The notes beneath the pieces are model-generated. The model worked only from the letters and a program-made list of their open reading frames with translations, made no database searches and was not told the DNA's origin. From Hyphomicrobiales bacterium (GTDB lineage Bacteria; Pseudomonadota; Alphaproteobacteria; Rhizobiales; JAJFHB01), in NCBI GenBank assembly GCA_021775615.1, contig JAJFHL010000182.1, positions 1 to 38,208 on the forward strand: a DNA stretch of 38,208 nucleotides. The letters are read 5' to 3'. The position numbers and the translations under genes were made by a program. Positions within the stretch are counted from its first letter, which is position 1. The number at the start of each line of letters is the position of its first letter. Positions 18,700 to 20,413 of this stretch are shown one piece after another.

Positions 18700-19524
18700 A
18701 TGCACCGGGTGTCGGCGAACGGAGCGCAGATACCGGCGATCGGCTTCGGCACATGGACCTTGAAAGGCGACGAGTGCGCCCGCCTTGTTGCCCATGCCAT
18801 CGACACCGGCTACCGGCACGTGGACACCGCGGATCTCTATGACAACGAGGAGGCGGTCGGTGAAGGCATCCGCGCCTCCGGCAGCGGCCGCGACGACGTC
18901 TTCCTCACCACCAAGGTGTGGCACACCAACCTCGCCGCGGGCGACTTTCAGCGCTCCGCCGAAAACAGCCTGAAAAAACTCGGCGTCGACAATGTCGATC
19001 TCCTGCTGGTTCACTGGCCCTCCAGGACGGTTCCCCTGGCGGAAACGGTCGGCGCCCTCAACGAGATGAAGGACCGCGGCCTGGCGCGCCATATCGGGGT
19101 ATCGAATTTTCCGGTGCGGCTGGTCGACGAGGCGGCGGGTCTGTCAAAGCATCCTTTGGTCTGCAACCAGGTGGAGTATCATCCGATGCTCAATCAGGAT
19201 GCGGTGATCGCCGCGTGCCGCCGCCATGGCATGGCGGTCGTCTCCTACTGCCCCTTGTGCCGCGACACCGACCTGCTCGCCAGCGAACCGATCACCGGAC
19301 TTGCCTCCAAATACGGGCGCACGGCGGCACAGATCGTGCTGCGCTGGCACGTGCAGCAGAACGGCGTGATCTGCATCCCGCGCACCAAGACCCCGGCGCG
19401 GGTTGCGGAGAACTTCGCGGTCTTCGACTTTGAACTCGGCGACGCGGAGATGACCTCGATCAGCACCCTCGGCGCCCGCGCCTTGCGCATCTGCGACTAC
19501 GAGTTCTCGCCCGAGTGGGACTAA
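18700..19524 (+). CDS. Aldo/keto reductase
   Basis: A 274-residue NAD(P)H-dependent (beta/alpha)8 barrel reductase. The catalytic tetrad is visible as Asp42 and Tyr47 in HVDTADLYDNEEAVG, Lys72 in TTKVW and His105 in LLLVHWPS. The C-terminal cofactor segment is CIPRTKTPARVAENF. It most resembles the 2,5-diketo-D-gluconate reductase-like (DkgA/DkgB) branch, but the substrate is not determined. The start overlaps the smc end region with only 3 bp between stop and start, and a GAGG ribosome site lies inside smc, so it is translationally linked to smc. Its stop is followed 4 bp later by the 266-bp inverted-repeat element. Confidence 0.92.
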   Translation: MHRVSANGAQIPAIGFGTWTLKGDECARLVAHAIDTGYRHVDTADLYDNEEAVGEGIRASGSGRDDVFLTTKVWHTNLAAGDFQRSAENSLKKLGVDNVDLLLVHWPSRTVPLAETVGALNEMKDRGLARHIGVSNFPVRLVDEAAGLSKHPLVCNQVEYHPMLNQDAVIAACRRHGMAVVSYCPLCRDTDLLASEPITGLASKYGRTAAQIVLRWHVQQNGVICIPRTKTPARVAENFAVFDFELGDAEMTSISTLGARALRICDYEFSPEWD

Positions 19525-19528
19525 ACAT

Positions 19529-19794
19529 CTAGACCCTTTCTTCTTCTTACGGAAACGCTTGATGGCGCCAAATCGGCTCGCTCGGCAAGGCGCGGTGCGC
19601 CGTTCGATGCGGTGCATCGGGCAAGCGCCGCAACGCCGCCGACGGGCCGATTTGGCCCACCGAAGGCCAGGTTTTCGCGCCCACTGACCGCGTTACGGCC
19701 CACTCGTGGTCGCCAGACCACGGCGTGAACCGTGCCTTGTCAGCAGACGTGAAAACCCGGTCAAGTGATTCCGTAAGAAGAAGAAAGGGTCTAG
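19529..19794. mobile_element. 266-bp structured element with perfect 26-bp terminal inverted repeats (MITE-like)
   Basis: The sequence at 19529-19554 is exactly repeated in inverse orientation at 19769-19794. Both ends carry CTAG, possibly a duplicated palindromic target, leaving 22-bp terminal repeats starting ACCCTTTC. The interior folds into two further arms. One is CCAAATCGGC/GCCGATTTGG (19568-19577, 19646-19655) enclosing GGCGC-GGT-GCGCC and CGATGC-GGT-GCATCG hairpins. The other pairs 19671-19688 with 19739-19756 (14 of 18 positions), enclosing GTGGTC-GCCA-GACCAC. No open frame of note is inside. It looks like a non-autonomous element or a structured RNA; the convergent flanking genes end at its edges. 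Confidence 0.65.
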
Positions 19795-20102
19795 GTTCTG
19801 TACTCAGCCGAAATCAGCGCCATAATTTCTTCGATCTTCATCGACCGCGGCGCATCTGCACGGCGCATCAGCCGTGCCAGCCGCGGATTGCGGATGCGCT
19901 TGGCGTCACGCCTCAGGTGTGAAATTACCCGTGGCTCGATGCGCGACGGCACACCCTGCAAATCGGCAATGGCATTCAGGAAATTAATCGAATAGACCGA
20001 CCATCCGCAGCTGTAGCGGGTCAGGTCTTCGATGGCGGCGACGCGCAGGGCGTCGAAGTTCCGCTCGACGAAGCGCGGACTGTAGAGGTTCGTATTGGGC
20101 AT
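19791..20102 (-). CDS. Small basic protein of unknown function
   Basis: A protein of about 103 residues beginning MPNTNLYSPRFVERNFDAL, with an amphipathic core (VAAIEDLTRYSCGWSVYSINFLNAIADLQGV) and an Arg-rich second half (RRDAKRIRNPRLARLMRRADAPRS). I do not recognise a family. The start at 20102 is preferred because the 75 residues open upstream look like non-coding sequence, but no good ribosome site is visible at either. The stop codon TAG lies inside the CTAG at the right border of the 266-bp inverted-repeat element, so the C-terminus may have been preserved or changed by its insertion. Confidence 0.5.
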   Translation of the reverse strand: MPNTNLYSPRFVERNFDALRVAAIEDLTRYSCGWSVYSINFLNAIADLQGVPSRIEPRVISHLRRDAKRIRNPRLARLMRRADAPRSMKIEEIMALISAEYRT

Positions 20103-20300
20103 TGGTTTTGTTTCCGAAGCGTTGCATTGCGCACCCGGCCGGGGCCAGGCGCGGCGCCTCGCGGGAACATAGGTACGGTTTCGCATCGGCTGCCGTTCCC
20201 GAAAAAGACGGCGCCGATCGCTTCGCGAGACGAATGGAATAGGCCAATGAAACACCGCAAATGCGGCATTTTTGTACCGGATGGACGTTTGCTGCCCCCA

Positions 20301-20413
20301 GATCACGACCGACTTAGGTTGACTCACCTAAGTCGATAAAACGTGATCGATTCCAATAGTTTAGAGCGGGATCGGACGGAAAACCGGTATCCACCTTTCC
20401 TGATCCCGCTCTA
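20301..20413 (-). repeat. Composite palindromic repeat, copy B (reverse)
   Basis: This is the reverse-orientation copy of the repeat described at 1-107. The palindrome module reads GATCACG...CGACTTAGG, loop TTGACTCA, then CCTAAGTCG...CGTGATC, and the GGATCGGACGGAAAACCGG module follows and ends at GATCCCGCTCTA. Together with 20103-20300 it makes up the spacer between the small unknown gene and the TPR gene. The remainder of that spacer shows no supported gene, only a weak CCGC-AAAT-GCGG hairpin followed by CATTTTT near 20254-20272. Confidence 0.85.

Follow-up and report, generated by a model that had tools for sequence, protein, structure and literature searches.

The window, the whole stretch of 38,208 nucleotides analysed from a contig of a Hyphomicrobiales bacterium, holds an element at 19529-19794 that lies between two convergent genes, an ORF on the + strand at 18700-19524 to the left and an ORF on the - strand at 19791-20327 to the right. 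Its ends, 19529-19562 and 19761-19794, form an inverted repeat of 34 nt that is 94% complementary, with the outer 26 positions exact, and both borders carry CTAG, the right-hand one forming the TAG stop codon of the - strand ORF. These results bear out the first-pass annotation, which had described ends that are exact inverse copies over 26 bp with CTAG on both sides (confirmed by a complementarity check), an interior with two arms (an RNA fold of the 266 bases has both leaving the end stem) and convergent neighbors. Because it is TA that is duplicated, as set out below, the element proper is taken as 19532-19791 (260 bp), the outermost C and G being target sequence. The features of the locus are as follows:

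19532..19791, + strand: element proper, 260 bp, first base G and last base C, delimited by the border statistics of 64 copies
19530..19531, no strand: left TA target duplication, within the CTAG at 19529-19532; the outer base varies between copies and the inner G is almost constant
19792..19793, no strand: right TA target duplication, within the CTAG at 19791-19794 and also in the TAG stop of the - strand ORF
19532..19554, + strand: left terminal inverted repeat, the 5' strand of end stem P1, complementary to the right end at 23 of 23 positions
19769..19791, - strand: right terminal inverted repeat, the 3' strand of end stem P1, placed by complementarity
19559..19663, + strand: arm A, a long interrupted hairpin with conserved motifs GGCAAGGC, CAAG and AACG, from the consensus fold of 44 copies
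19665..19762, + strand: arm B, a second hairpin resembling the reverse complement of arm A, from the consensus fold and the comparison of arms

With up to three mismatches allowed, the window contains two occurrences of the 23-base end sequence, and none of 100 shuffles contains any. All six frames of 19532-19791 contain stops, the longest open stretch being 80 codons, and the element thus has no transposase gene of its own. The window gave no Rfam match above the gathering score (the best weak match reached 23.7 bits against 50), a search for tRNA found none, and neither a promoter-like site nor a U-tract terminator-like site was found in 19300-20000. The RNA fold has an energy of -172 kcal/mol against -100.2 +/- 5.25 in 200 dinucleotide shuffles, none of which is as stable (z -13.68).

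The first-pass annotation had proposed searching the whole genome for further copies with variable flanks, and these are present in number. In the window's own genome (G000), an assembly of 392 contigs and 6.26 Mb, at least 41 rows align with the window copy over at least 176 of 266 positions, a count that is a lower bound with 40 of 129 candidates scored. The end sequence has 78 matches there at up to three mismatches, against none for a reversed control, and the flanks vary from copy to copy.

The borders of these copies are informative about the mode of insertion. Copies cut off at contig ends were set aside. After 16 of 80 rows had been left out as truncated, composite, atypical or repeated, 64 copies were aligned and their borders counted; 52 of them fit the form NTAG..CTAN, as is predicted for duplication of TA and unlike a 4-bp duplication. 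CTAG..CTAG is the most frequent pair (34), followed by CTAG..CTAA (7) and TTAG..CTAG (6), with CTAG..CTAT (2), CTAG..CTAC, ATAG..CTAA and TTAG..CTAA (one each) being rarer. The outermost base varies independently on each side, while the inner G on the left and the inner C on the right are almost always kept. The other 12 copies fit neither border model cleanly, through a damaged TA, misplaced ends or, in L080 only, altered inner bases. The borders therefore fit duplication of TA and not of CTAG.

Empty sites in relatives, which the first-pass annotation had expected to contain a single CTAG, were recovered in part. At one locus (L014) the insert is absent from the relatives G002 and G003, where the site lies at a stop codon; a single TA at this empty site is plausible from the alignments, which are inexact at the junction, with a 12-base gap in G003 and four extra bases in G002 close by. 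As for the window's own site, G001 yielded the left-hand gene alone, which there lacks the element and has other neighbors. IS630 inserts at TA and duplicates it, according to PMC2170065, and the borders and the empty locus together are the signature of an IS630/Tc1-type element.

Copies often sit at gene ends. Among 53 rows with usable flanks, none was called within an ORF; 25 lie between convergent ORFs, 13 are tandem in the sense and 10 in the antisense orientation, and five lie between divergent ORFs. These are raw counts, read without a genome-wide baseline of gene-pair orientations, from gene calls made by an approximate GC-frame method, and three rows are repeats of others in the set (L066/L244, L062/L168 and L064/L217), two of these pairs having received differing calls. 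In 23 of the 53 rows an ORF end overlaps the border by 2-3 bases, the stop codon being the element's own CTAG border. Such insertions would be tolerated because a CTAG at a stop codon gives TAG again on both sides. The first 19 loci had seemed to favor one orientation, as an RNA function might, but the 53 rows did not bear this out (13 sense, 10 antisense). The title of a study cited in PMC2170065 points to a target preference of IS630 for CTAG.

The fold is kept across copies through paired changes. In the consensus structure of 44 copies, 95.7% of cells pair. Both sides change in 54 of 94 pairs, against 33.5 +/- 2.7 in shuffles, and the covariation score is 0.357 against 0.144 +/- 0.004 when shuffled (reached by none of 500) and at most 0.067 for slid structures; here the 44 copies were hand-chosen from the 64, their relatedness inflates the comparison with shuffles, and the same alignment had supplied the structure, a circumstance that favors it over its slid versions. 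The end stem carries this behavior furthest: in 109 distinct copies it is Watson-Crick paired with its own partner at a mean of 93.9% (lowest 59%), and with the partner of another copy at 65.5%. The same holds within a single genome, where 14 copies of G001 pair at 0.912 with their own and at 0.695 with other copies' partners, and have a median identity of 0.70 in the stem and 0.89 in the arms. Column identity averages 0.863 for paired positions of the arms and 0.843 for unpaired positions of the interior, but 0.788 for the end stem. The ends are the least conserved part of the element, kept mainly by pairing, and end stems differ so much within G001 that it is difficult to see how one fixed end sequence could be recognized. 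Elements of this sort do not usually keep a folded two-armed shape while their sequence changes, and its retention here suggests that the fold matters in its own right. L073 and L215 each bear two different end types.

The two arms share the motifs GGCAAGGC and AACGC in the same order when arm B is read as its reverse complement. In a profile test of arm A against reversed arm B, 13 of 44 copies, which are related to each other, score above 0 bits, compared with 8 of 880 base shuffles, and none of the 44 does so when the arms are compared on the same strand; the consensus alignment of arm A with reversed arm B was reached by 43 of 1000 dinucleotide shuffles. From these comparisons the arms look like inverted relatives of each other. 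One-arm elements of 164-166 bp also occur, retaining arm B (L338-L340) or arm A (L341 and L342), as assigned by alignment scores without shuffles, and their borders are of the same kind as those of full copies, the left border of L341 being CCAG. The window's own genome carries a 165-bp mixed derivative (L124), and six composites (L119, L120, L121, L122, L123 and L131) have 103-105 extra bases after position 61, the common insertion being judged from its first bases rather than from a full alignment. Since the right flanks differ at its six loci, the composite seems to have transposed as a whole. Small inverted repeats are apparently present in the extra bases. Eight shorter stretches read in the same genome comprise half elements, a composite and a short derivative. 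The half elements L127, L128, L130 (at position 501) and L129 have one intact end followed by other sequence, which in L129 is another small repeat; a tRNA-like look of L128 went unconfirmed on checking.

The family extends well beyond this genome. BLAST gives matches in 14 of 61 genomes. A covariance model gives them in 53 of 297 genomes when the order is searched (E<=1e-5) and in 23 of 289 when the class is searched (E<=1e-20), the own genome being included in each of the three counts; the last two are upper figures for true members among the genomes searched, and the filters may lose some. The weakest matches, such as L315-L318, which score similarly on both strands, may be other palindromes of similar shape. 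The interior motif occurs in 97 stretches of the genome collection and in none of the viral collection, no instance was found in plasmids and phages, and the exact end sequence has no match in either collection. Of these records, 80 of the 97 were listed by name. Most of the 80 are metagenome bins of Hyphomicrobiales; one is an isolate (Rhizobiales bacterium IMCC20636, CP018226.1), and the names Kiloniellaceae, Pelagibius and Acidiferrobacterales each belong to a single bin, contamination of bins being possible. Going by sequence matches, the family spans Hyphomicrobiales and reaches other Alphaproteobacteria. In the open-access literature we found no account of it, subscription papers being outside the scope of this search.

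Within this range, each genome has amplified its own copies: of 91 copies, taken from 10 genomes, 87 have their nearest copy in their own genome, whereas shuffling gives 15.6 on average and 28 at most; the 91 were drawn from 109 copies, those left out being from unassigned or single-copy genomes. Arm consensuses of seven genomes are 72-92% identical. Flanking stretches of at least 168 bases that match G001 and G003 are 71-81% identical, and the consensus arms are 92% identical in the comparison with G001 and 85.5% in that with G003; in this small comparison conservation of the element seems to equal or exceed that of the matching flanks.

The likely source of transposase was sought among resident IS630 elements. 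A single DDE_3 match in the window's own genome lies within an element that starts TA-GAGCGGGATC at a CTAG target (the IS630 transposase of this genome is in the region G000:C380:15382-15792), and the IS630 elements of this genome and of G001 begin TA-GAGC at CTAG targets. G001 has a pair of ends, and G049 a single end, similar to this IS630; G003 has a CTAGACCC end near a transposase fragment; and the best IS630 ends found in G042 and G040 differ from the type of the own genome. Only the outermost four or five bases (GAGC, GACCC) are common to the element and the resident IS630. A DDE_3 match was absent from five of ten other element-bearing genomes, one of the five (G002) being 71% complete. 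Neither the 78 end matches in the own genome nor 41 in the complete genome G042, both at up to three mismatches, gave an opposed pair at transposon distance, in a search that used one end variant per genome and that more diverged ends would escape. For eight of ten unpaired or atypical ends in the own genome, no opposite end (at least 13 of 20) was found within 4-9.7 kb downstream; of the remaining two, L142 is a composite copy and L141 has only 230 bases of room. Against the IS630 elements compared, the interior gave no clear match: the one strong hit, in L282, is a neighboring copy of the element, and the best of the others, in an antisense frame, has an E-value of 0.012 across 40 residues. 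The gene groups recurring beside copies were, among those listed, translations of the element itself and widespread gene families.

We consider that the element is probably a non-autonomous, TA-inserting MITE with a maintained shape, probably moved in trans by an IS630/Tc1-type transposase. It is dispersed, duplicates TA, is missing at one locus in two relatives, co-varies, is built from arm modules and has amplified genome by genome. The first-pass annotation had suggested a MITE moved by a related transposase; mobility is upheld by the dispersal, the TA duplication and the empty locus, while the case for the transposase is circumstantial, no autonomous element with matching ends having been found in the searches above. 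In outline, the element would insert into TA, mostly inside CTAG, and duplicate the TA, moving probably by cut and paste with a putative IS630/Tc1-type transposase supplied in trans. Its targets are often a CTAG at a gene's stop codon, where duplication of TA leaves TAG on both sides and keeps both flanking frames closed, which suggests how such elements settle without damage. The unit itself is a shape-conserved module, made of a co-varying end stem of 22-23 bp, one or two inverted related arms and conserved inner motifs, of which the window copy is the two-arm version. The folded form, as a cruciform or single-stranded, may be what is selected, either for mobility or for a role of transcripts from either strand at gene ends.

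MITEs are usually thought to be moved via their conserved end sequences. A more tentative extension of our reading is that this is a class-wide, long-lived family recognized by its shape, with folded DNA or RNA being read by the transposition machinery or the host. Recognition by shape is likewise a possibility we hold with reserve; little beyond the TA-GA(G/C)C tip would be fixed, with the ends at liberty to drift so long as they stay paired. The family makes it testable if a DNA transposon is open to recognition via its folded form, and the isolate IMCC20636 offers a place to try.

The strong co-variation of the helices would also be expected if the element were mainly a structured RNA, regulatory or catalytic, that has turned repetitive, with selection acting on the + strand transcript; we regard this as unlikely. 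The first-pass annotation had set copies elsewhere, as the mark of a mobile element, against compensatory change, as the mark of RNA; this contrast fails, both being true of the element. A transcript of the + strand would account for almost invariant G-U pairs on that strand (columns 33-138, 142-241, 173-214 and 183-203) and for the excess of G-U over A-C in arm A (468:58) and arm B (456:95) when near-invariant pairs are counted, as well as in the minor states of arm A (196:54) and in the shared minor states of that arm (21:8). Yet the end stem has little excess (55:46), the minor states of arm B are reversed (62:95), and the rare states stand at 17:23 in the end stem, 15:22 in arm A and 24:25 in arm B; identical copies were left out of the counts for end stem, arms and minor states. 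As a sign of a strand-specific RNA, the ratio of G-U to A-C thus gave a mixed outcome between stem, arms and classes of state. The mean energies of the two strands are also alike (-158.0 for + and -157.2 for -, the + strand being better in 56 of 109 copies), tandem neighbors show no clear bias between sense and antisense, and the searches described above gave neither an Rfam match above the gathering score nor a promoter-like site. The covariance model also recognizes the reverse strand of many copies. The evidence on strand points both ways, with a strand-specific RNA the less favored reading overall; of the earlier suggestion of a structured RNA, the strong compensatory change in the fold stands, with no strand clearly preferred.

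Imperfect palindromes are known to be corrected by template switching, and the paired changes might be unselected if one arm of a near-palindrome were repeatedly copied onto the other in this way during replication, a process compatible with mobility. Near-perfect pairing while sequence changes freely is in keeping with such copying, as is the small strand bias of the end stem (55 G-U, 46 A-C). We doubt that it is the main cause of the paired changes, for it leaves unexplained that unpaired interior positions are conserved (mean identity 0.843, with 0.788 in the end stem), that most full copies hardly vary in length, that the arms of seven genome consensuses are 72-92% identical and that some copies have two different ends.

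The clustering at gene ends bears on a further proposal, also compatible with mobility, that the element is a putative bidirectional terminator or stabilizer of mRNA 3' ends selected between convergent genes. Both strands fold equally, convergent ORFs flank 25 of 53 rows and divergent ones five, and an ORF end overlaps the border by 2-3 bases in 23 of 53; the same clustering is expected, however, from CTAG targets in stop codons and the purging of harmful insertions. The first-pass annotation's bidirectional transcription end is not borne out in 19300-20000, where no U-tract site was found, other kinds of terminator being possible, and we judge selection for such a function to be rather improbable.

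REPINs are inverted hairpin pairs amplified within genomes, and to our knowledge REPIN/RAYT systems do not duplicate TA. Both they and the element are inverted hairpin pairs with genome-specific amplification, and Y1_Tnp (PF01797) is enriched in element-bearing genomes (8 of 14, against 8 of 47 others); a REPIN-like element moved by a Y1 (RAYT) transposase is nonetheless very improbable in view of the TA duplication, the long terminal repeats and the inconsistency of the Y1 partner, which was not found in the complete, element-rich G042.

Returning to the MITE reading, known small repeats offer close parallels. Our comparison draws on PMC2229807 and PMC2170065; PMC10969869 was used besides these. 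RUP of pneumococcus and Correia/NEMIS of Neisseria are described as small repeats with terminal inverted repeats, 5'-TA-3' termini, target duplication, many copies and stable folded transcripts, all of which recall the element, and IS630-Spn1 is the proposed mover of RUP (PMC2229807). They measure some 100-200 bp, against 260 bp with two inverted arms here, and the repeats other than CIR form an armless stem loop from both ends (PMC2229807). The element further differs from them in an end stem less conserved than the interior and in its spread over the order and beyond, and from RUP with IS630-Spn1 in that no partner bearing the same ends was found in our searches. The CcrM-associated intergenic repeats (CIR) of Caulobacter and Brucella are, like the element, alphaproteobacterial, intergenic, two-armed and conserved between species, but are about 110 bp long with linker-joined arms and are listed without terminal inverted repeats (PMC2229807), where the element has 260 bp and a long end stem; the two are set apart by the description of CIR, not by its sequence. 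With the IS630 family the element has TA target duplication (PMC2170065) and the GAGC tips of resident copies in common, and it differs in being 260 bp without a transposase gene and with an interior lacking clear similarity to the IS630 compared.

Several smaller observations concern repeats around the copies. At L015/L116 (G000:C330:59474-59986) two tandem copies of different subfamilies have one CTAG in common. A short arm A-like copy (L343, L282:2607-2769) has two different end types and starts at the border of the G040 IS630. The joined flanks of copies in the window's own genome include some 60 bases with several matches near contig ends of G001 and G003 (L154-L158), probably another repeat. 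A second type of small repeat in that genome, starting CTAGAGCGGGATCAGGAAAAG or CTAGATCACGATCGACTTAGG, adjoins IS630 and copies of the element, at L132:2028-2141, in L129 near 530-680 and in the right flank of L026.
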